64,000 bases of DNA from Vallitalea guaymasensis (GTDB lineage: Bacteria > Bacillota > Clostridia > Lachnospirales > Vallitaleaceae). This document shows positions 1 through 62,976 of the stretch, in pieces. Under the pieces are notes generated by a model. The model had not been told where the DNA came from and did no database searches. It saw only the letters and a list, made by a program, of their open reading frames with translations. Within the stretch, counting starts at the first letter, position 1. Every line of letters begins with the position of its first letter. A program made the position numbers and the translations under genes. The stretch is from contig NZ_CP058561.1 in the NCBI RefSeq assembly GCF_018141425.1, positions 1,364,001-1,428,000 on the forward strand, read 5' to 3'.

Positions 1-631
1 AAGGAGTCTTTCTTGCATCAAAAGCTATTAAGCTTAATCTATCGTATAAACCTTTAAATTTATAATACTCTTTATTTCTTACAAGAATTGTAGGACTAAA
101 ATCTGTTGCGACAATATAATTCTTTGTTTCCTTTAATAGTTTTTCAATAAGGTATCCTTTACCACTTGCAATATCTATAATGGGTTCATTGTCTTTTATT
201 TCCTCCACTATATAATCCATTTGAGCTTTCCAACCATTAATATAATCGTCATTGTATATTTTTTGAAAAGCACTTTCAAACATTCTAGAACTTGTAATAA
301 AATCTCTCTTCATTTCAAAGTAAGATGCTTTGTACCAATAATCAGCACCATTTAATTCATTCTCAGGCGAATTCATCAATTTTTTATAAACATCTGGATT
401 TTCTCTTAAATATTTTTCTAACCCACTTTCAGTCTTTTCCCATAAGTCGTTTCTAGATAAAGATGCAGTCAGAAATACTGCAATCTCATCTCTAATTTCG
501 TATTCTGCCTGACATGATGAACACTTTATGTCTGCATTAACTACCCTGTCCTTATTATCTTCTTTTATATGCCATTCTAATTCATTATGACATAAAGGAC
601 ATATAAGCATATCCATATATTGTTTATGCAT
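1..631 (-). CDS. SAM-dependent methyltransferase with N-terminal zinc-ribbon (partial, runs off left edge)
   Basis: The start is at 629-631, with GGAGG 8-9 bases upstream; the 3' end lies outside the window. The N-terminus carries two Cys-x-x-Cys pairs (CPLC near residue 11, CSSC near residue 37), as in Trm112/YbaR-type zinc ribbons fused to methyltransferases. A glycine-rich SAM motif (IDIASGKG) follows, then ATDFSP with the acidic ribose-binding residue. It probably methylates a small molecule or RNA; the substrate cannot be told. It is the left-most gene of the minus-strand cassette series. Confidence 0.75.
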   Translation of the reverse strand, partial: MHKQYMDMLICPLCHNELEWHIKEDNKDRVVNADIKCSSCQAEYEIRDEIAVFLTASLSRNDLWEKTESGLEKYLRENPDVYKKLMNSPENELNGADYWYKASYFEMKRDFITSSRMFESAFQKIYNDDYINGWKAQMDYIVEEIKDNEPIIDIASGKGYLIEKLLKETKNYIVATDFSPTILVRNKEYYKFKGLYDRLSLIAFDARKTP

Positions 632-648
632 TTTTTCATGCCTCCAAA

Positions 649-1104
649 TTATAATTTAATTAGCTTCTTCAGTTCATTATATAGTTGTTCCTTTAATCTA
701 TTTAACTCTTCCATAGATGGCTTTGTTTTTTCTGAATACATTTTGTTCTTATCAGTCCACCAAACTGGTCCTCTCACATTCTCCTCATCTTTTCTTCTAG
801 GAAATATATGCCAATGAAGATGAGCATCTCCATTACCTAATAACTCATAATTTAATTTTTGGGGTGTAAACGCATTATATACTGCTTCACCAACAATACT
901 CATTTCATACAAAAACTTCTCCTTAAAGTCCTTTTCTAAGAAATGTAATTCTGTACTATGTTCCTTACATAAAAACAAAGTATATCCTCTAAAAAATTGG
1001 TGATCACCAATAACAACATAACCTGTTTCCAGTTCTGCGACAAAATATGGATTTGTATTATCTTTTATCATCTTGATTCTGTCACATATCAAACAATCAT
1101 TCAT
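649..1104 (-). CDS. HIT family nucleotide hydrolase/transferase
   Basis: This 151-residue protein has the histidine triad HLHWH (H95, H97, H99) and an N-terminal CLIC pair (C4, C7), the usual layout of HIT hydrolases acting on nucleoside phosphoramidates or dinucleoside polyphosphates. The middle His is the expected nucleophile. Length and motif order match the family. It follows the downstream partial methyltransferase gene by only 17 bases, so the two may share a transcript. The exact substrate is unknown. Confidence 0.9.
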   Translation of the reverse strand: MNDCLICDRIKMIKDNTNPYFVAELETGYVVIGDHQFFRGYTLFLCKEHSTELHFLEKDFKEKFLYEMSIVGEAVYNAFTPQKLNYELLGNGDAHLHWHIFPRRKDEENVRGPVWWTDKNKMYSEKTKPSMEELNRLKEQLYNELKKLIKL

Positions 1105-1168
1105 TAATCTATTACCTCCTGTAGTTTAATTCATATTCCATATGATACATCTATATAATATTTGTTAT

Positions 1169-1846
1169 TTAACTTAAAGCTGATTGTTTGGTCTTATTTT
1201 CTTTTATCTCCATATATATAATTGTAAACATTATAGTCAAGTAATTTAATATAAGTACTCCAAAATACTGTACCATTATAATAAATCCTTTCTCCAAATA
1301 TTCCATTTTTATTGGAAGCAAATTTATTAGAGCCATCATAATGAGAACCCCAAAATACATCATTATATACTTTATAACCTTATTTATATTACTAAATACT
1401 ACTGAAACACTTACGGTAAAAACCTCAAGTTTTCTTTTATTATCAATTAAGTAAACTTGCCATACAAATACCAATAATGCCTGTACTATAATAGTTGATA
1501 TAATTGGTATAGTAAACAAAGAGACTATTATTAAGATAATAAACTGAATAGCATATACACATAAAATTTGCTTAATATCACTTAATGAATCTATTATAAA
1601 TTCTTTTAAATTTACAGTCTTGCCTGTAATATTTTGCATACTTATATAGATTATTACTAAAGATATCCATAGGTTTATGAATCCCTTAATAAGATTATAT
1701 ATGGTTTTTATTATTGTATAATTTAAATGATTGTAATCAGTTGTATAGATAATTTGATCGACAATAAATATCGTTGTAATTATAAGTACTAAGTAAATTA
1801 TTTCTTTCTTATTTTTTCTAAGAATATCTTTTGCTTGCTTATTCAT
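1169..1846 (-). CDS. Polytopic membrane protein, unknown function
   Basis: The start is taken at 1844-1846 because AAGGAG lies 8 bases upstream; a GTG three codons earlier would overlap that site. The protein is rich in Ile, Leu and Val with about six predicted membrane spans and a basic N-terminus. The layout resembles the small DUF-type integral membrane proteins common in clostridia. No catalytic motif is visible. The 64-base gap to the HIT gene holds AT-rich sequence with no convincing attC. Confidence 0.6.
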   Translation of the reverse strand: MNKQAKDILRKNKKEIIYLVLIITTIFIVDQIIYTTDYNHLNYTIIKTIYNLIKGFINLWISLVIIYISMQNITGKTVNLKEFIIDSLSDIKQILCVYAIQFIILIIVSLFTIPIISTIIVQALLVFVWQVYLIDNKRKLEVFTVSVSVVFSNINKVIKYIMMYFGVLIMMALINLLPIKMEYLEKGFIIMVQYFGVLILNYLTIMFTIIYMEIKENKTKQSALS

Positions 1847-1951
1847 TTTTAACACTCCTTAAAAATCTACCGCTCCCATCTCATTTTTCTATTCTAGTAA
1901 TGTACGTTGAGTACAGTAATATTATATTATTTATGTTGTCCATTAACTATC

Positions 1952-3963: not shown

Positions 3964-4621
3964 CTATCCTTTTATCCCATAGGAAATAAGTGTACACGAT
4001 GGCTTTAATATATACACTGAATCTTTATTATCTATTACATGGTCACATATACTTGAATGACCATCAGCAAAAAGTTCAGCTTCTCCTTTTGTAAGACCTC
4101 TATTAACAAGGTTAGTAGTCATTTTTTCTTTGTCCTCATTTAATAACCGTTTTTTCCAGTCCCATGCTGTAGTTATTTCGTTATATTCCTTAGTATGTTT
4201 ATCACTATCACCATAAGGATTGATAAATTTCACTCTATCATTAAGACGGACATCTACATTCTTCAACCCTAGTTCTTGCATATATATTGGTATCTTTATA
4301 CCAACTCTATAATCTCTACCACCATTATTTAATTCGTGCCTATACATTTTTCTGTATAATGATGTCATTCCAGTGCCTATATAATCAAAATCGCTAAAAT
4401 ATTGGATGGTCTTTTCAATCTCTAAATCACCTTCCATACAGATTACCATACCACCTTCTGTAACTGAATTGATTATTTTACCGAGGATGTCTTTGGCATT
4501 AGGAAGGTTTATCAATCTTCCATACTTTGTCTACAAGAAATTTAATATAATCATCATTACACCATCCACTACGGATGGATTTTAAAAACTCTAACTTATT
4601 ATTCCAATAAGAGTCATTCAT
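3964..4621 (-). pseudogene. SAM methyltransferase pseudogene with internal deletion, paralogue of 61076-61966
   Basis: The start at 4619-4621 opens MNDSYWNNKLEFLKS, almost the same as the start of the intact methyltransferase at 61076-61966. After about 38 codons the frame meets a TAA, and the sequence jumps to the part equivalent to codons near HIPNAKSIL of the intact copy, shifted in frame. About 80-90 codons holding the glycine-rich SAM motif are missing. The remaining C-terminal 180 codons stay open and are closely similar. The junction has a few bases of microhomology (CCT). The protein cannot bind SAM, so this is a relic. Confidence 0.85.
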
Positions 4622-4667
4622 GCTCTACCTCCAGTAACTATGTTCAATTGCTGTTCCAACATCTCTA

Positions 4668-48798: not shown

Positions 48799-48799
48799 A

Positions 48800-49312: not shown

Positions 49313-49426
49313 GTTTTCCCTCCTCCTTAAATATAAATAATCTTTATATCTTACAAATGTGAATTGCTATATGTACTAAATAATCTTCATCTCAAAGAAA
49401 TACCCTGAAATGAATGAGGCAATTTC

Positions 49427-49790: not shown

Positions 49791-49802
49791 CGCCATAATT
49801 AA

Positions 49803-50397: not shown

Positions 50398-50463
50398 TTT
50401 CTACTCTCACACTTCATACTATTTCTTCCCTGTTTATACTCATACATGTAATTAGCAGATGTC

Positions 50464-50540
50464 GTCTAACTTTCTGGCTTCACGACGTCCTGGCTCCTTA
50501 GAGTGATTCCGCTCATACCACCCTCGTGGTGGATAATGTA
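50464..50540 (-). repeat. Half attC
   Basis: R' box GTCTAAC, then TTTCTGGCTTCACGACGTCC and GGCTCCTTAGAGTG ... CTCATACCACC are present. There is no R'' box before the next gene's stop at 50560. Confidence 0.55.
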
Positions 50541-50559
50541 GATTATTTTATCTTAGTCC

Positions 50560-51024: not shown

Positions 51025-51143
51025 AAAAAATTTTCTCCTTCGCTTTAAGCTTATTAAGTAGAAATTTGATTCTACAACGTATATTTTTTCTCTTTTGTAA
51101 CTTAGAATTTTTATACAAAAATAACTTTCTCAATGAGTATTTC

Positions 51144-51273
51144 ACATAACGTGTATGTGTTTGCGATGTCCCCCAACCTCTAGAAGGAGGTGCTCATGCC
51201 TTGAGTAATGGCTAATGTGCCGACTGTACCTTTAGGTCTTAGGTTGGGGGATGTTGTAAACACAGTGTTATGA
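51144..51273 (-). repeat. attC site, family II variant, 130 bp
   Basis: Minus strand: R'' TCATAAC, R' GTTATGT. A long stem: GTGTTTGCGATGTCCCCCAACCT pairs with AGGTTGGGGGATGTTGTAAACAC. Interior AGAAGGAGGTGCTCATGCCTTGAGTAATGG belongs to family II. Confidence 0.88.
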
Positions 51274-51360
51274 GTCGTTTGACCGTCAGCCTTTACTTCT
51301 GTTTACACATTGCTTCAATTTTGCCAGTACACTTAAAGTTGTAAAATTATCAAACTATCA

Positions 51361-51873
51361 TTATAAGAGTTCAATCCATTTTTTTATACCTTTTTTACCT
51401 TTTAATATAATTACATTTTTACCCATATCCATACTCTCATTAAACAGTTTTTGTCTTCTTTTATCTTTCTTAGGATAATCAAATAAAATATACTTAACAA
51501 TATTAATATCGATTTTTTCTATACACCCCTCTGAAATATCAGGTCGAACACTACCCTTATATTTGAAATATCTTCTTATAAATCTATACAAACATATAAA
51601 TCTGTTTACTTTTAAATATATAATAGTATCACAACAATTAAACCTACCATCTTCTTTACAGTCAGCAAATCTATTTCCTTCATATATCCATTTTCTTTTT
51701 TCTGTTATAGATTTAGTCATCACAATTTGCTTTTCTGTTGAGCGTATCTTCCAATTTCTTTCCCAAAAAATTTTATCATTATAGTGTATTGGAATATTTA
51801 GTTTCTTTCCTACTATATTAGCTAGAGTGGTTTTACCTGAACCCGATGACCCTGTTATCCATATTCTTTCCAT
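51361..51873 (-). CDS. P-loop kinase, DNA topology modulation protein (FlaR)-like
   Basis: Walker A GSSGSGKTT at residues 8-16, then IPIHYNDKIFWERNWK, WIYEGNRF and RFIRRYFKYKGSVRPDISEGC. This is the pattern of FlaR/AAA-type adenylate-kinase-like proteins, usually called topology modulation proteins by homology. Biochemical role unknown; a kinase is expected. Confidence 0.8.
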   Translation of the reverse strand: MERIWITGSSGSGKTTLANIVGKKLNIPIHYNDKIFWERNWKIRSTEKQIVMTKSITEKRKWIYEGNRFADCKEDGRFNCCDTIIYLKVNRFICLYRFIRRYFKYKGSVRPDISEGCIEKIDINIVKYILFDYPKKDKRRQKLFNESMDMGKNVIILKGKKGIKKWIELL

Positions 51874-51966
51874 TTAACACCTCCATACTTAGTCTGCAAA
51901 TATTGCTATAAATTACATCCTAAACCTTATGTCCTAAAACTAAAAATCTGCGATACCGAAAATGAC

Positions 51967-52040
51967 TCATAACGTTACGTGATTTGACGACATGGACATC
52001 CTTCCTTGTTACTATCCATGTCGTCAAATCGCTGTTATGG
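51967..52040 (-). repeat. attC site, short type, 74 bp
   Basis: Minus strand: R'' CCATAAC, R' GTTATGA. A nearly perfect stem, GATTTGACGACATGGA with TCCATGTCGTCAAATC, around a loop ATCCTTCCTTGTTAC. Confidence 0.9.
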
Positions 52041-52065
52041 GACGTACCAGACGGAAACTCCGCAC

Positions 52066-52818
52066 TCATATTAACTTTGCCAATTCCGTCGGATAAAATG
52101 TCTTTATATTGTCTTTGAAATCCTGGACTTTAACCCATACAACTTTAGCCGGTAATAAATCAGCATTCATATCCATCTCATTAATCTTATAGATATCTCC
52201 TGATAGCTTAACTTCATATATATGAGAAATCTCGTGCCCCATCATACCCTTGACTTCAAAGAAATTCTCAAATATGATGAACGGCTCATACTCTACGACA
52301 TGAACACCAAGTTCCTCAAAAGCTTCTCGTTCAAGTGCTTCTTCTATCTTCTCTCGATATTCTATTCCACCGCCAGGTAAATGGTAATATACTTCACCGT
52401 CATCTGATTCCTTAATAACAAGAATCTCATCATCTCGTCTGGCAATCAATCTTGCAGTATTACGTATCGACTGTTTCAAATACTCAAAGCTTATTATCTC
52501 TGTCTCAAAATGACGCTCTGTGAACTCTGTTAGAGCCTTGATCTGATACTTATCATAACTATTCAGTTCTTGAGCAACAACTAACTTATCTTCATCATCG
52601 TCAGCACGTCTGATAATCGCAATAACCTTACCAGTATATCGTTCAACTGGCTCGAACACACCCAAAACATATGCATCTATCTCCTGCCCATCACCAGATA
52701 CAGTGTCAGGAATATATCCATAGTTCAAAGGATAGATCATATTAAATCTGGGGTGCTTTGAACCCAACGGTCTGTCAATTATAACCTCTACATCCTTACC
52801 TAAATAATCATACAACAT
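52066..52818 (-). CDS. Inorganic pyrophosphatase-like / Nudix fusion protein
   Basis: The start at 52816-52818 follows ATAGGGGGACA; an ATG further up (52875) lies inside an attC. Residues 1-100 (DRPLGSKHPRFNMIYPLNYGYIP, GDGQEIDAYVLG, GKVIAIIRRADDDEDKLVV) match the core of family I inorganic pyrophosphatase. Residues 120-250 are a Nudix domain: GGGIEYREKIEEALEREAFEELG. Both halves handle phosphoanhydrides, so the fusion may hydrolyse a nucleotide and its pyrophosphate, but this is inference. Confidence 0.75.
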   Translation of the reverse strand: MLYDYLGKDVEVIIDRPLGSKHPRFNMIYPLNYGYIPDTVSGDGQEIDAYVLGVFEPVERYTGKVIAIIRRADDDEDKLVVAQELNSYDKYQIKALTEFTERHFETEIISFEYLKQSIRNTARLIARRDDEILVIKESDDGEVYYHLPGGGIEYREKIEEALEREAFEELGVHVVEYEPFIIFENFFEVKGMMGHEISHIYEVKLSGDIYKINEMDMNADLLPAKVVWVKVQDFKDNIKTFYPTELAKLI

Positions 52819-52855
52819 TAAATGTCCCCCTATATAAAAACTAGTATGGTATGTC

Positions 52856-53029
52856 CCATAACGTCCTTCGTTCACGACGTACCTACCACTCTAGAGGTGC
52901 TTGCTCATGGCGAACTTGCTTCGTCTAATGCGAGTGCCGTACCGACGGGCTTAGGGGGCTGTATGTGGTCGATATTCTTACTCCAAAGCCGTGCCCTCTG
53001 TCGACCCTTGCGTTAACGTATTGTTAGCT
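52856..53029 (-). repeat. attC site, 174 bp variant
   Basis: Minus strand: R'' AGCTAAC, R' GTTATGG. Left arm TAACGTCCTTCGTTCACGACGTACC; the right part GTCGATATTCTTACTCCAAAGCCGTGCCCTCTGTCGAC is an extra inner hairpin, found again at 58500-58550. Confidence 0.8.
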
Positions 53030-53058
53030 GACGTACTTCAGACAAACGACATAGCACT

Positions 53059-54120
53059 TCAGTTATCACCAAATTGTTCTATAAACTCAAATAGAATATT
53101 TACAAACTTAGTTGGTTGCTCAAAGTGAATATCGTGCCCGGACTTAATCGTAATAAGCTTAGTATCCTTAAACGAATTAACAACTCTACTGGCATCCTCA
53201 TCCGTGTTAGCTGCATACAAGACACCATCCTTACCATAATTAGTTCTAGCTTTAAGATAGATTGAAGGGCATTCAATATCACTAAGTAACTCCTCAATAT
53301 CTATTCCTTCCTTCCATCTACCACTATAAAATGTTTCTGCAAACTTCAAATCAAATTCATCAAGGTATCTGGTACCATGCAACCATTTATAAGGTATATA
53401 CCAAATTTTCAAAGCACTATTCTGATGCTTTAATCGATATTTCCTAGCTGTCTCATATACTAACTTTCTTAAGTCACCAAATAGGTTCCAAAAATAGCCA
53501 TTCAATATGTAATATAAGTCGTAATCTATTTCTGAACCATCAACCAAATACTTATGCACTACTTCAAAACCATCATGCCATACAAATGTATTCTTCATTT
53601 CATTAGGTTTAACTCTAAAGAAAGGTGGATCTTCAAATACTACACCTTTCACATAATCTTTAACATTAACAGTTAACCAAGCAGCTATGATTCCACCAGA
53701 AGAATGACCACAAACGATACAGTCATCTCCAATAACATTCTCAATGAACCACTTGAAATCATTTCCCATAAATTTACAAGTATACTTTAATTCATCATGA
53801 CTGGATTTACCATGACCATGGCAATCAATTGCATATACATGATACTTTTCTTTCAAACTAAGAAGAACATTGGCATAATCTTCCCAACACATTGTCTGGC
53901 CATGAATCAATAACAGTGGTTGCAAATCATTCTTGCATTCAACGTAATTTAAGATTGTACCATCGTCTAAGGCTACACTCTGCTCATTATAAACTCGTCT
54001 AACCTTAAACATTGGAATTCTATCATAATGTAGATTCATATAACAATATCTCAGAAATGCAATAAGTAATGCTAAAATTATTACATATAAAATCATCAAA
54101 TGAATTATGTCATCTAACAT
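53059..54120 (-). CDS. Alpha/beta hydrolase, membrane-anchored; start codon at the attC joint
   Basis: Residues 8-27 form one membrane span. The domain has LLIHGQTMCWEDY (oxyanion hole), DCHGHGKS, VCGHSSGGIIAAW (nucleophile Ser) and SGHDIHFEQP (His). 353 residues fits. The ATG (54118-54120) is the last three bases of the upstream cassette side, and the second codon TTA starts the GTTAGAT core of attC. The next ATG is eight codons on. Neither has a clear ribosome site. Confidence 0.85.
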   Translation of the reverse strand: MLDDIIHLMILYVIILALLIAFLRYCYMNLHYDRIPMFKVRRVYNEQSVALDDGTILNYVECKNDLQPLLLIHGQTMCWEDYANVLLSLKEKYHVYAIDCHGHGKSSHDELKYTCKFMGNDFKWFIENVIGDDCIVCGHSSGGIIAAWLTVNVKDYVKGVVFEDPPFFRVKPNEMKNTFVWHDGFEVVHKYLVDGSEIDYDLYYILNGYFWNLFGDLRKLVYETARKYRLKHQNSALKIWYIPYKWLHGTRYLDEFDLKFAETFYSGRWKEGIDIEELLSDIECPSIYLKARTNYGKDGVLYAANTDEDASRVVNSFKDTKLITIKSGHDIHFEQPTKFVNILFEFIEQFGDN

Positions 54121-54248
54121 TTCTTATTTCCAATGTCCTAGAGCCTTAGAGGGAGTTGCTCATGCCCTTGATAAGGGCTAATGCAACGACTGTCGCGACG
54201 CGCTTAGGCTGTGGAATGTGCGTAGCGAACGTAAATATTTTGTTAGAT
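54112..54248 (-). repeat. attC site, family II, 137 bp
   Basis: Minus strand: R'' ATCTAAC, R' GTTAGAT. Interior GAGCCTTAGAGGGAG ... CCCTTGATAAGGGC ... GACGCGCTTAGGCTGTGG; right arm GCGTAGCGAACGTAAATATTTTG. The usual ACG before the core has become ATG, forming the hydrolase start. Confidence 0.9.
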
Positions 54249-54289
54249 GATGGAAAAAGACGGAATTTACCAGTAGCCGTCCCGTAAGT

Positions 54290-54856
54290 TTAATAATGTC
54301 CTATTTGTGGCTTATCCTTTGACCTGTGTTTACGCTTAGGTTCATATTCCTGCCAATATACTCTTTTATCATTATATCTGGTTCTTGGTTCTTTCTTTTC
54401 TGCAGAATAACCTATATATACTATGCCAAGTGGTGTAACAAAATCAGGTATATTTAGTACTTTCTTCAACATTCTAATTCTATTTTGGACAGGATATATA
54501 CCAATCCATACTGTTCCTAATCCTAAACTTGTTGCAGCAATTAACATGTTCTCTATTGCTGCGCTACAATCTTGAATCCAAAGTTCATGATCAGCACCCT
54601 TTAATGCTAATTTCATATTACCACAAACTACAATTCCTACAGGAGCATTGTATCTTGCATATTTGCACTCTTGTTTTATTTTTGAAAGTTTGTCAGCTTC
54701 ATCGACAACAATAAATTCCCAGGGTTGACAATTTACAGCTGTAGGTGCAGCCATAGCTGTTTTTAATAATGTAATAATTGTCTGTTTATCAACTTGTTTA
54801 TCTAGATATTTACGTATACTTCTTCTTTCATATATTGTTTTGATCACCTCAGTCAT
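54290..54856 (-). CDS. Nitroreductase family protein
   Basis: The protein opens IYERRSIRKYLDKQVDKQTI, then AMAAPTAVNCQPWEFIVVDE, SAAIENMLIAATSLGLGTVWIGIYP and FVTPLGIVYIGYS, the standard FMN-binding nitroreductase pattern. It would reduce nitro compounds or quinones with NAD(P)H. GGGAGGATTATA precedes the ATG. Confidence 0.9.
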   Translation of the reverse strand: MTEVIKTIYERRSIRKYLDKQVDKQTIITLLKTAMAAPTAVNCQPWEFIVVDEADKLSKIKQECKYARYNAPVGIVVCGNMKLALKGADHELWIQDCSAAIENMLIAATSLGLGTVWIGIYPVQNRIRMLKKVLNIPDFVTPLGIVYIGYSAEKKEPRTRYNDKRVYWQEYEPKRKHRSKDKPQIGHY

Positions 54857-54913
54857 TATAATCCTCCCTCATATTATATAATCACTTATATTATTAGAAT
54901 AGTCTTTTTCTGC

Positions 54914-55072
54914 ATCTAACGTTTCCTTATTCCGACGTCCCAGCACCTTAGAAGGAGTTGCTCATGCCCTGATTAAGGGCTAATGCAACGACTGTCGCGA
55001 CGCGCGGGATGTGTAAGGGCATTTCTCAAAAGAATTACCCTTACCCGAACGAATGGCAATACATTGTTAGAT
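54914..55072 (-). repeat. attC site, family II, 159 bp
   Basis: Minus strand: R'' ATCTAAC, R' GTTAGAT. Interior CCCAGCACCTTAGAAGGAGT ... CCCTGATTAAGGG ... GCGGGATGTG, plus a second hairpin GTAAGGGCATT ... AATTACCCTTAC. Confidence 0.9.
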
Positions 55073-55100
55073 GAAGTTATTACCGGAAACTATCACTAGT

Positions 55101-55562
55101 TTACTTGATTCCAGACTTATTTTTAGTATCCCATGATATGTTTTCATTCCAATCTGACCATAATTCTTTCAACTTATTTACCAGCCACAACCCTCCGAAG
55201 GTTGTAGTCCCTTCATGATTCTTATAAATAATCCAATCCTTACTACTGTCAAACCAAAAGCTTTCGTTATTCCAGAAGTATATTTCTGTTTCCCAAAAAT
55301 CATAATCTACAATATTACTTATCTTTGTTGAAATTCCATCTTCTCTAAATTCATAAATATCCATAATCTTTCGATCTCTAAAAATATTCTTTATCTCTAT
55401 AAGTTTAGAATCTGTGTCAAGATATTCTGAATCAAATGCTATCAAATCATTTCTTTTACAATCATACAGTGGATACCAATAATGCCTACTGATGTCCCAA
55501 ATAGAATTTAGTTCTTTTCTAATCTTTGATGCTTCCTCTTTACTCAAGATTGTTTTTTTCAT
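55101..55562 (-). CDS. Conserved hypothetical protein (153 residues)
   Basis: The start at 55560-55562 follows AAAGGAAATATT. A soluble, Trp- and Asp-rich protein: HYWYPLYDCKRNDLIAFDSEYL, YDFWETEIYFWNNESFWFDSSKDW, HEGTTTFGGLWLVNKLKEL. The mix resembles immunity-type cassette proteins. Not assigned. Confidence 0.5.
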   Translation of the reverse strand: MKKTILSKEEASKIRKELNSIWDISRHYWYPLYDCKRNDLIAFDSEYLDTDSKLIEIKNIFRDRKIMDIYEFREDGISTKISNIVDYDFWETEIYFWNNESFWFDSSKDWIIYKNHEGTTTFGGLWLVNKLKELWSDWNENISWDTKNKSGIK

Positions 55563-55602
55563 AATATTTCCTTTCAATGGAGATAAACTAGGTAATAATT
55601 TT

Positions 55603-55808
55603 ATCTAACGTTACGTGTTCCTGACGTCCAAGCACCTTAGAAGCGCACTCTCCTGCTCTGATTAAGTAGCTAATATGGGCGCCGTCCCGTCAGGGCTTAG
55701 GTTGTGGGATGTGCGACTGTATTTCTATCAACTCTAGTTACCAATTACTATGGTAAAGCCTTCAAGTAATTATACCATGTTAGAGCGAACAGGAACATTT
55801 TGTTATAT
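55603..55808 (-). repeat. attC site, family II with extra hairpin, 206 bp
   Basis: Minus strand: R'' ATATAAC, R' GTTAGAT. Usual arms and CTTAG blocks, and a ~75-base insertion (55720-55790) with ACTATGGTA/TACCATGTTAG pairing before the GAGCGAACAGGAACAT arm. Confidence 0.85.
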
Positions 55809-55872
55809 AAAGTAAATCACGGAAACAGCCAATTACAATAATTATTATCATAATTTATAAATAATTAATTTT

Positions 55873-56364
55873 TCATATATACTTTAAACAGTTCAAAAGG
55901 TGCTTTTCACCAATACTTCCACATCGCAACTTTAATATTGCATCATCAAAACTAAACCACTTTAATTCATCTACTTCTATAGATTTTGAAAAGTCACCCT
56001 TCTCAACTTTCATCAAATACCCTAACATTAGCAATTCATGCTTTTCATAATAATAACTCTTGATATATCTCAATTTATCTGATCTTTGCCCAGTTTCCTC
56101 AATAACTTCTCTTATAGCCGTTTCTTCTGCAGTCTCACCTTTCTTTATATACCCAGCAACTAATACCCAGTTAGTCCTTGATACATAGTTTTGTTTCAAT
56201 AGTAAAACCTCATTGCATTCGTTTACTACAGTTACTAGAACACTTTGCCCAACCTTTTCAAAATAAGGCTTCTTACAAGTGTTACAATAAGGTATTAATC
56301 CCTCATCTCCAAGTTCTTTTTCAATTAACATTTCACCACATTCAGGGCAAAATTTATATTTCAT
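55873..56364 (-). CDS. Nudix hydrolase with zinc ribbon (NudC-like)
   Basis: A zinc ribbon, CPECG and CNTCK (C7, C10, C27, C30), precedes a Nudix box: GYIKKGETAEETAIREVIEETG. This combination is typical of NADH-pyrophosphatase-like Nudix enzymes acting on nucleotide derivatives. 163 residues. Substrate unknown. Confidence 0.88.
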   Translation of the reverse strand: MKYKFCPECGEMLIEKELGDEGLIPYCNTCKKPYFEKVGQSVLVTVVNECNEVLLLKQNYVSRTNWVLVAGYIKKGETAEETAIREVIEETGQRSDKLRYIKSYYYEKHELLMLGYLMKVEKGDFSKSIEVDELKWFSFDDAILKLRCGSIGEKHLLNCLKYI

Positions 56365-56397
56365 ATTTCCACCTCAATTCACTAGTGATGTTATTTC

Positions 56398-56608
56398 ATC
56401 AAACGTTTCGTATTTCCGACGTCACAGCGCCTTAGAAGGAGTTGCTCATGCTTGTGAGTTTACGAACAGCTAATGCAACGAGAGTCCAGACTTGGCTTAG
56501 GCGGTGGGATGTGCGGTCAGTGTGGCAATTATTTATATTTCTGAGTATATTCCGTAGTCGTTAAACTCATTATACCATAACAGAGCGAACCGAAATATAT
56601 TGTTATAT
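56398..56608 (-). repeat. attC site, family II with extra hairpin, 211 bp
   Basis: Minus strand: R'' ATATAAC, R' GTTTGAT. Arms TCGTATTTCCGACGTCACAGCGCCTTAG and CTTAGGCGGTGGGATGTGC pair; a ~75-base insertion before GAGCGAACCGAAATATA resembles that of 55603-55808 and of 58255-58349. Confidence 0.85.
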
Positions 56609-56628
56609 GATGTATCAAATTGGACGTC

Positions 56629-57195
56629 TTAGTATACCTTGCGATTAAAATATTCAACTATCAGTTTCTCACCATTATACATCAGCATACTCATACTTCC
56701 CATATGTAATTTCGTTATTCCTGAACCATATTCACCATCTGACAAAGTATACAAAAGTGAATTGATTGCACCGCCATGAGATACAATTAAAATGTTTTTA
56801 TCCTCATATCTTTTAGCCAACTCCAATACCTTATTATTCACTCTTTCTCTCAAGAGCTGCCAGTTTTCCATACCAGCATATTTCCTATCTGGATATTTTT
56901 CCAACCTCTCATCTAGTGTCATCCCGGATGCTTTACCATAGTCTCGTTCAATCAGATCTTCTTCTAGAATAACTTCTTCTTCTCCAATAGTTTCAGCTAT
57001 AACTTTAGCTGTACTTTTTGCTCTTTTCAAAGGACTAGAAAATACTATATCCCAATTATACTTTTTTAGATATTCGCCAACCACTCTAGCTTGTTCTAAT
57101 CCAGTTTTATTTAAATCTATATCTTCTCTGCCCTGAAGTTTAGTAAGCTTATTCCATTCTGTTTCTCCATGTCTAATGATACCTATTTTACCCAT
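56629..57195 (-). CDS. Histidine phosphatase (phosphoglycerate mutase-like)
   Basis: Motif RHGETEWN at residues 8-15 (catalytic His), FSSPLKRAKSTAKVIAE, EDLIERDYGKASG and a second His motif IVSHGGAI: the branch 1 histidine phosphatase layout. 188 residues is usual. It probably removes phosphate from a small metabolite. AGGTTTTC precedes the ATG. Confidence 0.92.
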   Translation of the reverse strand: MGKIGIIRHGETEWNKLTKLQGREDIDLNKTGLEQARVVGEYLKKYNWDIVFSSPLKRAKSTAKVIAETIGEEEVILEEDLIERDYGKASGMTLDERLEKYPDRKYAGMENWQLLRERVNNKVLELAKRYEDKNILIVSHGGAINSLLYTLSDGEYGSGITKLHMGSMSMLMYNGEKLIVEYFNRKVY

Positions 57196-57234
57196 AAGAA
57201 AACCTCCGATTCCAAAAACTAAATTTTATATGTC

Positions 57235-57349
57235 ATCTAACGTCCCGTATTTCCGACGTCTCTGAACTGGACCCTCAAAGCCCTTCTCCCTGGCGGTGCT
57301 TGCACCCAGTGAAGAGATGTGCGTAGCGAACGGAAATATTTTGTTAGAT
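57235..57349 (-). repeat. attC site, family I, 115 bp
   Basis: Minus strand: R'' ATCTAAC, R' GTTAGAT. A textbook family I site: CGTCCCGTATTTCCGACGTC, CTGAACTGGACCCTC, CTTCTCCCTGGCGG, GGTGAAGAG-like and GCGTAGCGAACGGAAATATTTTG. Confidence 0.92.
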
Positions 57350-57401
57350 GATGCAACCACTTGACTCCATTGCATTCATTATCATATAGTCTATATCTTA
57401 A

Positions 57402-58232
57402 CTAAACCCTATAATATGACCCTAATATTTTAATGTCAAATCCTTCGGTTACCTTTATTACTGCATCCTTTACAGCTTCATCCCTTTGGTAGCAACCGTC
57501 AACATCTATAAAGAAATTATAATTCCCTAACCCCGTTTTTCTAGGTCTTGAAATTATAGACCTGAGGTTTATACCTCTATCTGAAAAAATATTTAATATC
57601 TCACACAATAGACCTGGTCTATCTACATCATTACTTACAACAAATAATGTGTTCCAGTCAACACTAACAATATCTTCATCATTAAGTTCTTTAGATAGAA
57701 TTATAAATCTTGTTTCATTATCAATAGAATCTGCTATATCTTCAACTACTAAATCAAATACTTCATTTTTATCTAACATATGACTTGGTATAATCGCAGC
57801 CTCATTTCTATCACCATTTAAAGCTTTTTCATAGGACGTGCTGTTACTAGCTGTTGTTATTATCTCAATTTCCCCCAATTTTTCAATAAGATCTATACAT
57901 TGATTATGTGCTTTAAACTGTGTATAGACTCTAGTAACTTCTTTTATATTATTACAGTTAGCTACTAAAGTAAATCTAATAGGTAAAACAATTTCATGTA
58001 TTATCTTTAAATCTGAATGAGTTAATAAATCCAATATTATCTGTACAAATCCATCTAATGTATTCTCAATTGGAATTACTCCCATCGCACACCCATTTTC
58101 AATAGCTTGAAAGGTACTCCGAATAGACAAATAGTATTCTAACTGCATTTTTATACCTTGTGAAGCTAAATATTTTTTAGTTGCTACTTCTGTAAATGTG
58201 CCCTTTGGTCCTAAGACAGCTATTCTGTTCAT
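57402..58232 (-). CDS. pheA: Prephenate dehydratase with ACT domain
   Basis: The domain has AVLGPKGTFTEVATKKYL, GVIPIENTLDGFVQIILDLL and NSTSYEKAL, then a ETRFIILSKEL end typical of prephenate dehydratase, which makes phenylpyruvate for phenylalanine synthesis. Residues 200-276 form the ACT domain with the GLLCEILNIFSDRGINLRSIISRP (GALV/ESRP-type) regulatory motif. It is full length (276). A biosynthetic enzyme as a stand-alone cassette is unusual. AGGAGG precedes the ATG. Confidence 0.92.
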   Translation of the reverse strand: MNRIAVLGPKGTFTEVATKKYLASQGIKMQLEYYLSIRSTFQAIENGCAMGVIPIENTLDGFVQIILDLLTHSDLKIIHEIVLPIRFTLVANCNNIKEVTRVYTQFKAHNQCIDLIEKLGEIEIITTASNSTSYEKALNGDRNEAAIIPSHMLDKNEVFDLVVEDIADSIDNETRFIILSKELNDEDIVSVDWNTLFVVSNDVDRPGLLCEILNIFSDRGINLRSIISRPRKTGLGNYNFFIDVDGCYQRDEAVKDAVIKVTEGFDIKILGSYYRV

Positions 58233-58254
58233 ATTGACCTCCTAATATTTTCTA

Positions 58255-58349
58255 TTCCGAAAGTGGTAATTAATTATATTTTTGATTACTTTTCCGTAGT
58301 CTATAAACTTATTATATCACACAGAGCGAACGGAAATATATTGTTAGAC
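58255..58349 (-). repeat. Half attC (R'' side)
   Basis: R'' GTCTAAC (minus) and GAGCGAACGGAAATATA arm, together with the AT-rich inner hairpin seen at 56515-56590, are present. The R' arm is missing upstream of the pheA start. Confidence 0.65.
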
Positions 58350-58377
58350 GGCGTCAACTGTTAGCCACTATAATTAA

Positions 58378-58490
58378 TCATCGCTATAATATCAAAAAAC
58401 ATATGTGCTAAAATAACTGGTACTATTCTTCTATACCTAACATAGTATAACGAAAATATAGTAAACATTACTCCTAAATAAATGAGTGCT
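58378..58490 (-). pseudogene. 3' fragment of the CPBP protease gene (duplicate)
   Basis: About 95% identical to 49803-49914, the end of the frameshifted CPBP gene, including the TGA. The fragment stands between two half attC sites, so it travels or was created as a small broken cassette. Confidence 0.85.
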
Positions 58491-58578
58491 CGTTAGACTT
58501 AGGCGGCCGTATTTGGTCAGCATTTTCACTCCAAAGCCGTCCCCTCTGCTGACCCGAAGCAGGAACATGGTGTTATGA
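58491..58578 (-). repeat. Half attC (R'' side)
   Basis: GACTTAGGCGGCCGTATTTGGTCAGCA ... GCCGTCCCCTCTGCTGACC and GTTATGA (R'' TCATAAC on the minus strand) match the right half of the 52856-53029 site. The R' arm was replaced by the CPBP fragment. Confidence 0.65.
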
Positions 58579-58641
58579 GATGTAGCTACGGACTTAAATT
58601 ACGACATCTTTTAATCAATTATGATATCAATAACTTAATAT

Positions 58642-59679
58642 TTATTGCATATTCAAATGCTCATCAACTAACCATTTAATGTGTTCTTTAAAAGATTCAT
58701 GATACTTTGTATAACTATCAGCTTCATGTTGATAAAAATATACACTATTGTCATCATCAACTAATCTTATGCAATAATAGTCACCACCACCATTAGTTCC
58801 AATTGCAAAGTATTCTTTGTCCCTAATTTCTTTCTTCTTTTCTCTTGAATCAAGAGTATTGTATGCTATAAAACTTCGTAATGTGTGAAATAAGCTACTG
58901 TCTTTTCCAAGCCATACCCAATTATCATCATCAGCAGCGTCTTTATAATACAGAGACTCAGGAAAGTCACTTATTAGAAATCGTCTATAAAATTCAGGCA
59001 TTTTCACTCCTAATTCATTCTCTAATAAGTGGATCTTCTCAACTGTGAATCTAGTCCCAGTGAAATTAGGCAATCTTGTATTTACCCAAGGTTGCTTTTC
59101 TTTGGGATCTAGTTTATAACCTGACTTGATATAAACACCTTGTAGGTACTCGCAAATTTCTACTTGTCTATAGGATCGTGCATATGTATATGCATTCGTT
59201 TTCCCGAAGGACTCTGTATCGTATACTTTTGCGACATCCAAACCATTATCAACTAAGTATTTCACCACATGTAAATGCCCACTATTAATTGACTTAAACA
59301 ATGGATTAGATAAAATAGTACTATAATCATACTCAGCCCCATTCTCTCTAAGATATTTGACAACATCTAGGTGTCCTTTATCTGCCGCACTTGCAAGTGG
59401 ACGGCAATTATGTAAAGTTTCATTTTTATTTATATCAGCACCATTTTTGAGTAGTACTTTAACAGCTTCAAGGTTTCCTTTCTTTGCTGCAACATGTAAA
59501 AAAGTGCCAAACACAGTTATAATTCCTAGCATCTCAACATCTTCTTTAATCATCTTCTTAATAAGTTTAGTATCAGAATTATTGATTGCACTGTTAAACA
59601 TTATTACTTTCTCTTTGTCTTCTTCTTCAGCCATTCTCCATAAGATATTGCTCTCTGCTTTTCTTTTAAAAAACTTCAT
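58642..59679 (-). CDS. Ankyrin-repeat protein with C-terminal SMI1/KNR4 domain
   Basis: Residues 30-180 hold at least four ankyrin repeats (GTFLHVAAKKGNLEAVKVLLKNGADIN; RPLASAADKGHLDVVKYLRENGAE; NPLFKSINSGHLHVVKYLVDNG). Residues 210-340 match SMI1/KNR4 (FTVEKIHLLENELGVKMPEFYRRFLI; FAIGTNGGGDYYCIRL). SMI1 domains are frequent immunity proteins; ankyrin fusions are known in that group. 345 residues. Confidence 0.82.
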   Translation of the reverse strand: MKFFKRKAESNILWRMAEEEDKEKVIMFNSAINNSDTKLIKKMIKEDVEMLGIITVFGTFLHVAAKKGNLEAVKVLLKNGADINKNETLHNCRPLASAADKGHLDVVKYLRENGAEYDYSTILSNPLFKSINSGHLHVVKYLVDNGLDVAKVYDTESFGKTNAYTYARSYRQVEICEYLQGVYIKSGYKLDPKEKQPWVNTRLPNFTGTRFTVEKIHLLENELGVKMPEFYRRFLISDFPESLYYKDAADDDNWVWLGKDSSLFHTLRSFIAYNTLDSREKKKEIRDKEYFAIGTNGGGDYYCIRLVDDDNSVYFYQHEADSYTKYHESFKEHIKWLVDEHLNMQ

Positions 59680-59764
59680 AAGTAGTCTCCTAGAATTTTT
59701 CTTTTATCTAATCTAATAGCAAAATTGTACAACTCGCATGGCTCAATAGATGAGTAGCTATTTC

Positions 59765-59839
59765 TCATAACGTCCCGCGAACTAGCGACGTGTGGCATCC
59801 GTCCGATTAAAAGCCCATGTCGCTAGTTCGCTGTTAGCG
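59765..59839 (-). repeat. attC site, short type, 75 bp
   Basis: Minus strand: R'' CGCTAAC, R' GTTATGA. Nearly perfect stem GCGAACTAGCGACGTG with CATGTCGCTAGTTCGC around a short loop. Confidence 0.92.
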
Positions 59840-59865
59840 GAAGTAATCTACGCCAGCTCTGTAAT

Positions 59866-60882
59866 TCACCTCAAAGTTAGAACAGAAGCCTTTAATAATT
59901 CTATCTGTTCATCTAGCATCTTCATTGACTTAATTGTGTCTATAACTTGCTGGTAACCTAAATCACATTCATCTCTAGAATTAACTTCTATACCAATGGA
60001 TCTCTTTAAATTGTATTCAATCCATCCAATCATATTAATATTCAGAGCTCGCCACACATATTGGAGATCATTGAAGTGAATTGGACATACACTGTGATAA
60101 CCCTTTAATACCTCTAAGAATGCATCTATGTTTATTGTGCAGTCCTTACATTCTGACCAATATACCGCCACTTCGACTAGCTCAAATGTTGGATTAACGT
60201 AACCTGCTGCTTCCCAATCAATGATAATTGGTTTACCATCTACTCCCCACATTACATTCTTAGGATCAAGGTCACGATGGCTAATAACTTGACGCTCCAA
60301 TAATTCTAATGCTTTAAGTGATTCTGTCTCAGCTAAATCAATGTAATTAATATCAATATCTTCTAACCTCTTAAGTGTATCTGAGTTATTAGCTTGATCT
60401 AATATACCTTGCCAATCAATCTTACTACGCTTACCATCCTTAATATCAGGATTTTCAATTGATAAAAAATCAATCTGATGTAATTGTCCAAGAAGAACAC
60501 CTACCTTATAGCATTCGACCAAGTTCTCAGGTCTGTGCGTGTAAGAAAGTCCATCTAACCAGTCAAACACCTGATAATACTGTCCATCAATACTGTGTAT
60601 AGTCTTTCCTTCAATCTTCTTCACGGCCGAAGCAGATAGCCCCGTATTTACTGCAATGATTGATACCTCATCTGCAAATAAATGATTCTTCATAGCCGTA
60701 GGCCGCAACATTATCTGGGGATTTAAAGCCTTAATGAAATAATGCCCTTTACTTGTTGCCACATCAAACGACTTATGCAGTAGACCACCAAACACTTGCT
60801 TAGGCTTTTCAACTACCTCCCCCAACTCTAGCATCGTAGCTAACTCATCTATCCGTATGTTATATTCAACATTATTCTCCAA
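59866..60882 (-). CDS. Aminoglycoside phosphotransferase (APH) family kinase
   Basis: The protein-kinase-like APH fold is visible: FGGLLHKSFDVATSKGHYFIKAL (ATP loop and Lys), VISHRDLDPKNVMWG (Brenner HxDxxxxN) and PIIIDWEAAG (metal-binding Asp). 338 residues. Members phosphorylate aminoglycosides, homoserine or sugars, so resistance is possible but not shown. Confidence 0.85.
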   Translation of the reverse strand: MENNVEYNIRIDELATMLELGEVVEKPKQVFGGLLHKSFDVATSKGHYFIKALNPQIMLRPTAMKNHLFADEVSIIAVNTGLSASAVKKIEGKTIHSIDGQYYQVFDWLDGLSYTHRPENLVECYKVGVLLGQLHQIDFLSIENPDIKDGKRSKIDWQGILDQANNSDTLKRLEDIDINYIDLAETESLKALELLERQVISHRDLDPKNVMWGVDGKPIIIDWEAAGYVNPTFELVEVAVYWSECKDCTINIDAFLEVLKGYHSVCPIHFNDLQYVWRALNINMIGWIEYNLKRSIGIEVNSRDECDLGYQQVIDTIKSMKMLDEQIELLKASVLTLR

Positions 60883-60920
60883 ATTCTATACCTCTTTCTA
60901 ATTACCAAGTAGATTATTTC

Positions 60921-61035
60921 CGCTAACGTTTCGTATTTCCGATGTCTCTGAACCGGACCCTCAGCGCTCTTCTCCCTGGCGGTGCTTGTACCCGGTGAAG
61001 AGATATGCGCAGCGAACGGAAATATATTGTTATAT
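60921..61035 (-). repeat. attC site of the first cassette, family I, 115 bp
   Basis: Minus strand: R'' ATATAAC, R' GTTAGCG. Arms CGTATTTCCGATGTC and GCGCAGCGAACGGAAATATATTG; interior CTGAACCGGACCCTCAGCGC ... GTGCTTGTACCCGGTG. It closes the cassette that starts at attI. Confidence 0.92.
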
Positions 61036-61075
61036 GACGTAAATTCTTGACCCCTTTGTATATATTAAAAAGGAG

Positions 61076-61966
61076 CTATTTGATCCCATACGATATAAGT
61101 GTACACGACGGCTTTAATATATACACTGTATCTTTATTATCTATTACATGGTCACATATACTCGCATGACTATCACTAAAAATTTTAGCTTCTCCTTTTG
61201 TAAGACCTCTGTCAACAAGAGTCTTCTTCATTTTTTCTTTATCCTCATATGATAGCCTTTTATTCCAGTCCCATGCTGTTGTTATTTCGTCATATTCCTT
61301 ACTATGTTTAGCACTATCACCATATGGATTGATAAATTTTACTCTGTCATTAAGACGGACATCTACATTCTTCAAACCTAGTTCTTGCATATATATTGGT
61401 ATCTTTATACCAACTCTATAATCTCTACCACCTTGATTCAATTCATTTCTATATATCTTTCTATATAAGGGTGTCATTCCAGTCCCAATGTAATCAAAAC
61501 CGCTAAAATATTGGACGGTCTTTTCAATCTCTAAATCACCTTCCAAACAGATGACCATACCACCTTTTATGACTGAATGTATCATTTTATTGAGAATGCT
61601 TTTGGCATTAGGAATATGTCGTAGAACTGCCTGTGAAATTGCTATGTCATATTTTTCTTCTGGTAAAAACTCATTCAAATCGCACTTAATAAAATTAGTA
61701 TCGTACTCAAGTTCTGTAAAAATATGTCGTGCATCATTCAACAATGTATCGCTAATATCAACTCCTGTATATGTACTACCCTCAGGTAGAATAGGTAAAA
61801 GCAATAAACCTATATAACCAAAACCACACCCATAATCAATTATCTTTACAGGTTTCTCAATCTTCCATACTTTGTCTACAAGAAATTCAATGTAATCATC
61901 ATTGCACCATCCATTGCGGATTGCTTTTAAAAACTCCAACCTATCATCCCAATATGAATCATTCAT
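61076..61966 (-). CDS. SAM-dependent methyltransferase (first cassette)
   Basis: Motif I IDYGCGFGYIGLLLLP, motif II GVDISDTLL and ISQAVLRHIPNAKSIL are in order, as in class I methyltransferases; GGMVICLEGDLEIEKT and the basic KMKKTLVDRG end follow. Substrate unknown. GGGAGG precedes the ATG. A paralogue with a deletion of the SAM-binding part lies at 3964-4621, almost 57 kb further from the integrase. Confidence 0.85.
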   Translation of the reverse strand: MNDSYWDDRLEFLKAIRNGWCNDDYIEFLVDKVWKIEKPVKIIDYGCGFGYIGLLLLPILPEGSTYTGVDISDTLLNDARHIFTELEYDTNFIKCDLNEFLPEEKYDIAISQAVLRHIPNAKSILNKMIHSVIKGGMVICLEGDLEIEKTVQYFSGFDYIGTGMTPLYRKIYRNELNQGGRDYRVGIKIPIYMQELGLKNVDVRLNDRVKFINPYGDSAKHSKEYDEITTAWDWNKRLSYEDKEKMKKTLVDRGLTKGEAKIFSDSHASICDHVIDNKDTVYILKPSCTLISYGIK

Positions 61967-62035
61967 GTTCTACCTCCCATATCTATAATTTGAGTTCTGT
62001 CAATACATAAACTGATCTACTTAGAAAGAATTTAT

Positions 62036-62109
62036 GTTATATAACTACAATATTTCCGAATGTCGCTAATACCTCCAAATCAGATGTATTACCGAACGTC
62101 GTAAATACT
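62036..62109 (-). other. Probable attI site
   Basis: ATATAAC (62039-62045) gives GTTATAT on the minus strand, and beside it is TATTTCCGAATGTCG, the same order as the R' arm of attC (core, spacer, TATTTCCGACGTC). Two direct repeats follow: 62050-62073 and 62086-62109 (about 18 of 24 bases equal), the layout of DR1/DR2 in known attI sites. It lies between the integrase stop and the first cassette gene. GTTATATAAC is itself palindromic. Confidence 0.75.
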
Positions 62110-62130
62110 TACTATCCCTTACTCTTCCCT

Positions 62131-62976
62131 TCACATAATATCATCCAACGGACTCTTAATACTCATAATATTCTTATTTGTAACATGTGTATATATTTCT
62201 GTGGTTTTTGAACTTGAATGACCTAATAATTCTTGTATATATCTAATATCTGTTCCACTTTCCAACAAATGAGTTGCAAAACTATGTCTAAGACTATGTA
62301 CAGATACTTTTTTCATTACACATCCTTTTTCACATGCATTTTTAAATATTCTTTGTACAGTTCTTTCTGTTATATGCTTATCTTTATCAGCACCTTCAAA
62401 TAACCATTTATTTGGTCTATATTCCTTATAATACTTCCTTAATTGTAACAAAATACTTTCTGATAACATAACATATCTATCTTTGTTACCCTTACCTTGC
62501 TCTATCTTAATCAGCATTCTTTGACTATCTATATCATTTATTTTTAATTTTACTACTTCACCAACTCTTAATCCTGAAGAATATATTAATGCTAATAAAG
62601 TTTTATGTTTATTATTTTGTAATGATGCCAAAATACTTTTTACTTCTTTTTTACTTAATACATTTGGCAATTTTCTTTCTTTTTTTGGTCTTTCAACATA
62701 TACCGTTAACTTTAATTTATGTAATACATGTTCATTCAGAAACTTTATACTGCTGATTGTTTGATTAACATAACTATGTGAACATTCTTTTTCCATAAGA
62801 TAACTTAAATACATTTTCACATCTGTCTCAGTAATTTCAATAATATCCTTTTTAATATAATCAATAAACCGTTTAATATGACTTATATAACATTTTTTAG
62901 TCTTACTTGAATAACCTTGTATAGTTAACTCTTGGGTATATTTCCTTATTATATTATCATTACTATCTGTTATCAA
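62131..62976 (-). CDS. Tyrosine recombinase, integron-like integrase without the IntI insertion
   Basis: The start is TTG (62974-62976) with AGGATG 9 bases ahead; no in-frame ATG lies upstream. Residues 6-90 form the core-binding SAM-like domain; residues 105-281 the catalytic domain with R137 (SSGLRVGE), K162 (GKGNKDR), H227 and R230 (HSLRH), H253 (LGHSS) and Y262 (YTHV). The C-terminus IKSPLDDIM resembles IntI ends. From GKG to HxLRH there are 71 residues; in IntI1, about 110. So the IntI-specific extra domain is absent. Likely acts on the attC/attI sites; this is inference. Confidence 0.85.
   Translation of the reverse strand: MITDSNDNIIRKYTQELTIQGYSSKTKKCYISHIKRFIDYIKKDIIEITETDVKMYLSYLMEKECSHSYVNQTISSIKFLNEHVLHKLKLTVYVERPKKERKLPNVLSKKEVKSILASLQNNKHKTLLALIYSSGLRVGEVVKLKINDIDSQRMLIKIEQGKGNKDRYVMLSESILLQLRKYYKEYRPNKWLFEGADKDKHITERTVQRIFKNACEKGCVMKKVSVHSLRHSFATHLLESGTDIRYIQELLGHSSSKTTEIYTHVTNKNIMSIKSPLDDIM

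Follow-up and report, generated by a model that had tools for sequence, protein, structure and literature searches.

According to an excerpt of one study (PMC7790495), integrons became possible once a recombinase gained the I2 helix. The same excerpt describes I2 as necessary for cassette capture and as absent from all other known proteins, and notes a lack of intermediates. The IntI-specific additional domain (I2, around patch III) is used as the integron criterion in searches, as stated in a portion of another paper (PMC9668308). Three marks for selection of the bottom strand of attC sites are named in part of a third (PMC8946536): the unpaired central spacer, the extrahelical bases and the terminal structure. 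The locus described here lies in Vallitalea guaymasensis, in a stretch of 64,000 nucleotides (contig NZ_CP058561.1, positions 1,364,001 to 1,428,000) that is called the window below, and consists of gene cassettes that follow a tyrosine recombinase, P0001. Judging from comparisons of sequences, we put the probability at roughly 85% that it is an integron-like array in which genes are captured by a tyrosine recombinase without the IntI-specific I2 helix. The IntegronFinder 2.0 report, in the part that bears on this, lists one complete Firmicutes integron (Limnochorda pilosa) and newly one in Salinibacter ruber, Bacteroidetes (PMC9024848), and a passage of a review counts Firmicutes and Bacteroidota among the integron-bearing phyla (PMC8618304). 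As far as these two passages go, the phyla are therefore not new, and it is the type of recombinase that is new. No description of I2-less integrons was found in the open-access literature searched, the scope of which did not extend to bioRxiv.

P0001 is a tyrosine recombinase in which R137, K162, H227, R230, H253 and Y262, which we take to have the catalytic roles, are invariant in 30 aligned sequences. Its top match in NCBIfam is TIGR02249 (integron integrase) at 232.7 bits, under the cut-off of 265, and NF040815 (XerA) matches at 230.8 bits, over the cut-off of 220. The segment that holds I2 in integron integrases is 26 residues long in P0001 and 66-67 residues long in 46 IntI rows of a 198-row alignment; it has 24-32 residues in all 152 other rows, and in none is it between 32 and 66. 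The alignment comprises 196 of 210 open reading frames (ORFs) of at least 230 amino acids with no stop, P0001 and IntI1, and the 46 IntI rows are IntI1 twice (locus L120 is IntI1 again), IntI2, and IntI1 relatives from genomes and viral contigs. IntI4 and P0001 align in two pieces, 15-179 and 240-318. The AlphaFold model of P0001 has a mean pLDDT of 86.8, with values below 50 for residues 255-266 around the catalytic tyrosine. By Z score its top structural match is XerA (4a8e; Z 24.0, root mean square deviation 8.5 over 259 residues), and IntI4 (2a3v) is matched with Z 22.1 and a deviation of 3.5. Because it is without the I2 insert, the recombinase, as judged by its sequence, falls outside the current definition of an integron integrase. 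If the array were a canonical integron with an I2 helix so divergent that the alignment missed it, TIGR02249 would also head the NCBIfam matches, even if under the cut-off. However, it is the whole segment that is short, no row has an intermediate length, and the model aligns to 251 of the 317 IntI4 residues, so we regard a hidden I2 as highly improbable.

Imperfect palindromes of 74-213 nucleotides separate the genes near the recombinase. Their outer boxes are NNNNNAAC...GTTNNNNN, and many fit RYYYAAC/GTTRRRY. R'', L'', L' and R' boxes like those of attC, with RYYYAAC...GTTRRRY, were found, often one base off the consensus. The recombinase, the attI-like region, the cassettes and the sites of the array are listed here.

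62131-62976, minus strand: tyrosine recombinase P0001, 281 amino acids (PF00589, 145.9 bits, cut-off 27.1)
62045-62130, minus strand: attI-like region directly 3' of the recombinase, ending ...TCGGAAATATTGTAG^TTA, with the G at 62045
43674-62044, minus strand: array with recognisable sites (two-ended attC-like sites and products)
60927-62044, minus strand: cassette 1, with methyltransferase ORF 61076-61966 (ORF and boundaries)
60920-61036, minus strand: attC-like site, R' GTTAGCGG being the exact reverse complement of the next cassette's R'' CCGCTAAC
59764-59840, minus strand: short attC-like hairpin, 77 nucleotides (folding z -5.6 on the plus strand)
58331-58579, minus strand: two left half-sites (58579, 58350), right halves not found (by boxes)
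57234-57350, minus strand: attC-like site (boxes and folding)
56397-56609, minus strand: long attC-like site, 213 nucleotides (boxes)
55602-55809, minus strand: long attC-like site, 208 nucleotides (boxes)
54913-55073, minus strand: attC-like site (boxes and folding)
54111-54249, minus strand: attC-like site (boxes and folding)
52855-53030, minus strand: attC-like site, R' GTTATGGG matching the next R'' CCCATAAC exactly
51966-52041, minus strand: short attC-like hairpin, 76 nucleotides, 18-pair ungapped stem (folding z -8.3 on the plus strand)
51143-51274, minus strand: attC-like site, 24 stem positions without bulge (stem analysis)
49426-49566, minus strand: attC-like site, R' GTTATAAG starting the cassette that heads the array in sister genome G003
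48777-49433, minus strand: cassette with ORF 48926-49312, 96% identical to the first cassette of G003
48334-48450, minus strand: attC-like site (boxes)
47845-47918, minus strand: weak short attC-like site (boxes and folding)
43674-43791, minus strand: attC-like site, leftmost two-ended one (boxes and motif scan)

In the integron mechanism the first box of a cassette (TTRRRY after the crossover) and its last box (RYYYAAC) derive from one circle. Since both boxes come from one circular molecule, they should match, and the GTT box that comes after belongs to the next cassette. In the window, for example, site 59840 ends GTTATGAG and the next R'' is CTCATAAC. The boxes were counted in five genomes of the same genus, which gave 22 cassettes with start, end and following box all found. 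Over the four variable bases, R'' and the GTT box at the cassette start match fully in 12 of the 22, with one mismatch in seven and two mismatches in three; R'' and the GTT box at the cassette's own end match fully in 3 of 22. The score at the start was reached by none of 20,000 permutations, that at the own end by 14,128 of 20,000. Among the non-first sites of 32 array loci of the wider family of P0001 relatives, 43 of 58 match 5/5 at the start and 4 of 58 at the end, in a list that holds at most 12 sites per locus and keeps some doubtful ones. Cassettes with matching boxes at both ends, as circular molecules would leave them, are therefore what the sequences contain. An earlier structural scan, which demanded that R'' pair with R' of the same site, gave no excess over the plus strand; such pairing inside one site is not expected, because R' belongs to the next cassette. 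Near-palindromes appear on both strands in structural scans.

Within window positions 1-62200, a motif scan trained on sites picked by eye in the same window gave 16 left and 15 right half-sites for the minus strand, and 4 left and 1 right for the plus strand. The 100 kb to the left of the window have 0 left and 3 right half-sites on the minus strand and 3 left and 0 right on the plus strand. An explanation without any integron, an ordinary run of genes that are unrelated to each other and interspersed with REP-like or terminator-like palindromic repeats, would agree with the decay of many cassettes and with the leftmost 26 kb, where clear sites are missing. This explanation is contradicted by the permutation result for the boxes, by the cassette that has moved between sister genomes (see the next paragraph) and by the lack of left half-sites on the minus strand of the flank, and it is scarcely credible.

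The right flank of the array in G003 is colinear with that of the window at 86-91% over the first 8.8 kb, and its attI is nearly identical. The first cassette of G003 starts with GTTATAAG, joined at GTT, and it is this cassette that the window holds at 48777-49433; there the same GTTATAAG comes after an attC-like site, not after attI. G005 has a recombinase 91% identical to P0001, nearly the same attI, and a first cassette that is different again. In G013 and G017 attI is nearly identical and the sequences part after GTTA. These genome comparisons indicate that the attI beside the recombinase is the insertion point of new cassettes. The recombinase of G003 is a shortened remnant (L246, about 17353-17710); here a recombinase has been reduced while attI and array persist, a natural loss of the enzyme.

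The sequences show that cassette ends match, that attI is conserved although the first cassettes differ, and that one cassette is placed differently in sister genomes. In the mechanism that we propose, the recombinase would recombine attI, which lies directly 3' of the recombinase gene, with the attC-like site that a circular cassette carries. The crossover would lie at G^TT, and new cassettes would enter beside attI, in the reading direction of the recombinase. We infer that this recombinase is the mover, that the cassettes circularise and that attC acts as a folded single strand, with the strand presumably chosen by the asymmetric central spacer and not by extrahelical bases.

P0001 is not alone in heading such an array. 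A scan of genome contigs covered the best 80 of at least 583 confirmed relatives, and five plasmid loci bring the number to 85. A key test was run on the 57 loci with at least 1 kb after the recombinase. The key is a GTT 8-mer within 300 nucleotides of the stop codon, and its exact reverse complement must start a hairpin site farther down. In ungapped form the test was passed by 32 of 57 downstream sides and, of 54 upstream sides, by none; when keys were swapped between loci, 114 of 3192 passed. When bulges were allowed the counts were 37 of 57 versus 2 of 82 upstream controls, and with a stricter stem 26 of 57 versus 1 of 82. The Oceanirhabdus locus L063 failed the ungapped test. The I2-less relatives that head arrays come from Bacteroidota, Bacillota, Spirochaetota, Nitrospirota and one deltaproteobacterium. 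The I2 segment could be measured in 31 of the 32 key-positive recombinases and has 25-26 residues in 29 of them and 30 in two (L082, L100). Flavobacterium difficile (L071) has 12 successive sites, and all 11 after the first match 5/5 at the cassette start. G017, which is of the same family, has 12 consecutive sites at 4-5 of 5 and then 8 stem hits at 0-2, and G019 has a chain of two convincing sites and a doubtful third. No chained array was found in 36 kb of G042, which does contain one attC-like site of the kind found in the window. Among viral homologs the key test was run on 5 of 80 loci and one passed (L153). A TIGR02249 search of 59 relatives gave no match anywhere, controls included, and is hence uninformative. 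A group II intron reverse transcriptase is encoded inside a Chryseobacterium plasmid array of the I2-less type (L118, 14534-15850). Stems resembling group II intron ends mimic attC in the scan, and L118, whose apparent attI is a group II intron end, was excluded from the structure counts.

The structure of the sites was compared with a set of six canonical attC, namely that of dfrA1 and five linked sites from the neighbourhoods of canonical IntIs. When the surroundings of 11 canonical IntIs were scanned without gaps, no site agreed with the previous box at more than 3/5; the five linked sites came from a bulge-tolerant scan, in 3 of 10 canonical IntI neighbourhoods (L239 left out). All six canonical attC have single-base bulges in the left arm, near positions 8-9 and 14-17, and spacers that are equal within 1 nucleotide. 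In 71 of 71 distinct chain-verified sites of the I2-less type the right spacer exceeds the left, by 4 nucleotides in 36. Of these sites 55 are without a bulge, a count biased by the ungapped stem that was used to find them. When bulges were allowed and one key site was taken per locus, the right spacer is longer by 2-4 nucleotides in 34 of 36; 23 of 36 are without a bulge and the other bulges lie on either side. The right spacer is longer in 13 of 14 window sites, 48450 being reversed. Extrahelical bases on one strand are not a feature of the I2-less-type sites. The arms of the sites diverge within one array while their pairing is kept. In L061 the left arms of seven sites are 35% identical, and pairing is 86% within a site and 32% between sites; for L061, L093 and L056 together the arms are 35-43% identical between sites, with pairing of 86-88% within versus 32-38% between. 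The sites of L071 are alike (76%) and so uninformative on pairing versus sequence. Kept pairing and an asymmetric spacer would fit a recombinase that recognises shape and is without the helix by which extrahelical bases are read.

Some results weigh against an I2-less recombinase that captures cassettes as folded strands. Even with bulges allowed, 20 of the 57 loci fail the key test. The stem criterion, which favours paired arms, found most of the sites in the structure counts. When the window sites were folded as single-stranded DNA, 6 of 14 reached z <= -3, on either strand, and sites 56609, 55809, 53030 and 43791 are unremarkable. Since L' boxes of the window's genus are similar to attI in sequence, recognition by sequence is possible. 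A recombinase of the same superfamily, L122, which is outside the 57 loci, stands beside an IS91 transposase. IntI relatives also occur in some of the genomes. IntI1 was searched (E <= 1e-20) in 29 genomes of the scanned loci, 24 of which have a key-positive locus, and 22 were without a match. The match is full-length in two Nitrospirota genomes, in one of them with an internal stop; in the deltaproteobacterial genome it is partial and contains stops; and in four of the 29, at E 1e-21 to 1e-26, it covers just the N-terminal two thirds.

The IntI1 matches bear on the idea of a cluster of attC sites lacking integron-integrase (CALIN), in which the cassettes were moved by a canonical IntI that is elsewhere or lost and the adjoining recombinase is incidental. 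The two full-length IntI relatives in Nitrospirota genomes of the I2-less set would suit this, the deltaproteobacterial one being broken. Against it, an attI-like key and a key-matched first site come after this type of recombinase in the 37 loci counted above, the sites are without the regular left-arm bulges of the canonical attC, and a search of the window's own genome with P0001 gave no match at E <= 1e-30 except P0001 itself. The same query finds IntI1 at 6e-43 even in 7.3 billion bases. An incidental recombinase is very unlikely. The resemblance of the L' boxes bears on another proposal, that this recombinase moves cassettes in a Xer-like manner, through double-stranded attC and two strand exchanges and not through folded single strands. 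Many L' boxes and attI in the window's genus have TCGGAAATA before GTT in common, I2 is absent, and XerA is closer than IntI4 by Z. However, the arms diverge within one array while pairing stays, in L061, L093 and L056, and the spacer asymmetry runs in one direction in all the sites found by the stem criterion and in nearly all the key sites with bulges allowed. We consider a Xer-like mode unlikely and folded single strands the better account of the sites.

The descent of the recombinases was addressed with a tree of 72 rows. The canonical IntIs form one side of a branch with support of 100/100. They group with clostridial, spirochaetal and nitrospiral I2-less recombinases, the IS91-type and some others, at 91/79, which is under the tree tool's threshold for a firm branch, and most Bacteroidota array recombinases fall outside this IntI-containing group. 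An approximately unbiased (AU) test that placed 29 array recombinases in one clade (p 1e-62) was badly posed, since unrecognised arrays lay outside. When 39 I2-less integron-type rows were kept together versus IntI and others, the AU test mildly rejected this (p 0.036); the result is weak because the test was chosen after the tree had been seen. A gain of I2 within the I2-less integrons is favoured and not put more strongly, because the IntI stem is long and no root was inferred. The chances seem to us about even that there is a large, mostly unrecognised class of I2-less integrons, common in Bacteroidota, with members in Bacillota, Spirochaetota, Nitrospirota and others, which would recombine folded attC with spacer asymmetry as the strand mark, and within which the canonical IntI integrons would have arisen by gaining I2. 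If the I2-less class is ancestral, its members would be living intermediates of the kind that the cited passage says are lacking. I2-less recombinases that head cassette arrays also make the claim that I2 is necessary, as that passage words it, directly testable. Searches that demand the IntI domain, as in the quoted portion of PMC9668308, would miss the recombinases of these arrays.

The genome is a single contig of 5.6 Mb, with a GC content of 30.7% over the 184 kb that were read. Spo0A is present, and among 14 controls it was otherwise matched only in Bacillus subtilis; the host is a spore-forming bacterium, and the label of a low-GC Gram-positive host, given by the sequence-only reading, therefore fits. 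That reading had proposed a chromosomal integron-like array of about 60 kb, starting at a tyrosine recombinase beside an attI-like site, with nearly all genes on one strand and palindromes with RYYYAAC/GTTRRRY ends between many of them. The recombinase and the adjoining attI-like site are where it placed them. The minus strand carries 72 of the 83 window ORFs of at least 80 amino acids and the plus strand 11, of which one, an IS110-type transposase (46678-47478), is without minus-strand overlap. The sites stand above the background of the flank, and the differences in cassettes that the reading suggested looking for among related genomes exist. The array itself is upheld by the box rule, by the conserved attI with changing first cassettes and by relatives of the same architecture, and what has to be given up is its length. 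The 14 two-ended attC-like sites, which were picked by hand, are confined to 61,036-43,674, so that palindromes separate the genes near the recombinase and not throughout. The recognisable array is about 18 kb with decayed remnants, which reach to about 27 kb, and not a proven 60 kb. Folding each site as a single strand, a check that the reading proposed, gave z <= -3 for the six noted above. As to the word integron, the logic of the array supports it and the lack of I2 does not: by the IntI-domain definition the locus is not an integron, and yet it works like one in all the remaining features tested except the bulges.

Products of the array include an APH-type kinase, ankyrin/SUKH proteins, prephenate dehydratase, histidine phosphatase, NUDIX, nitroreductase, alpha/beta hydrolase, ASCH and DUF4240 proteins. 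Rfam gave no family at its threshold within the window. The motif scan placed decayed half-sites near 35.1, 30.3 and 27.0 kb, another at 10.7 kb being doubtful, and gave no clear sites in the leftmost 26 kb or so. The remaining features on the two sides are these.

63043-63071, minus strand: perfect sigma-70-type promoter match TTGACA-17-TATAAT upstream of the recombinase, a consensus match only, with 24 such matches in the region versus 21.8 expected
35126-35149, minus strand: isolated right half-site, decayed (motif scan)
26961-30304, minus strand: stretch with two decayed left half-sites (30304, 26980; motif scan)

The leftmost 26 kb may be old array, because relatives of the genes at 15,242-16,174 and 22,647-23,470, at 74-85%, lie within or next to arrays with attC sites in G005 and G001, both of the same genus. 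The methyltransferase gene of cassette 1 has a gapped copy, 87-88% identical, at 3,970-4,641, which is 57 kb off in the site-poor left part. An IS110-type element (46192-47755) lies within the array on the opposite strand, and at least five more copies at 99% are among the genome matches listed. To the left of the window, at genome positions 1275804-1300547, an ORF of 8247 amino acids stands beside ORFs of 4097 and 1330; from their size these are probably a large multi-modular synthetase cluster.

Four known systems can be set beside this locus. The IS91-associated recombinase of a Dinoroseobacter plasmid (L122, 2971-5058) belongs to the same superfamily and is without I2, but it is just upstream of the IS91 transposase and on another branch of the tree. 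Here the same enzyme family is found in a different partnership. The 'XerD'/TnpF recombinase beside tet(X3)/tet(X5) on Acinetobacter plasmids is 53% identical to P0001 over residues 48-278, and an attI-like site ending GTTATGTG comes just before tet(X) (L115, 3560-3822; L117, 4043-4898). It differs in that the two records examined showed no matching attC after tet(X). The tet(X) gene may be a stranded first cassette, and I2-less arrays may bear on how tet(X3)/tet(X5) became mobile. XerA acts in chromosome dimer resolution. Recombinases of the XerA type (NF040815; PDB 4a8e, 5hxy) resemble P0001 in protein length, in fold and in an NF040815 score over the cut-off, whereas P0001 heads a cassette array with an attI. 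The chromosomal integrons of IntI differ from this locus in that the recombinase here is without I2 and the sites are without regular one-sided bulges and have an asymmetric spacer. They share with it a recombinase beside attI, cassettes mostly of one gene in the same direction, RYYYAAC/GTTRRRY ends and junctions at GTT, and among them the reverse-oriented integrons of Spirochaetota are the nearest in layout.

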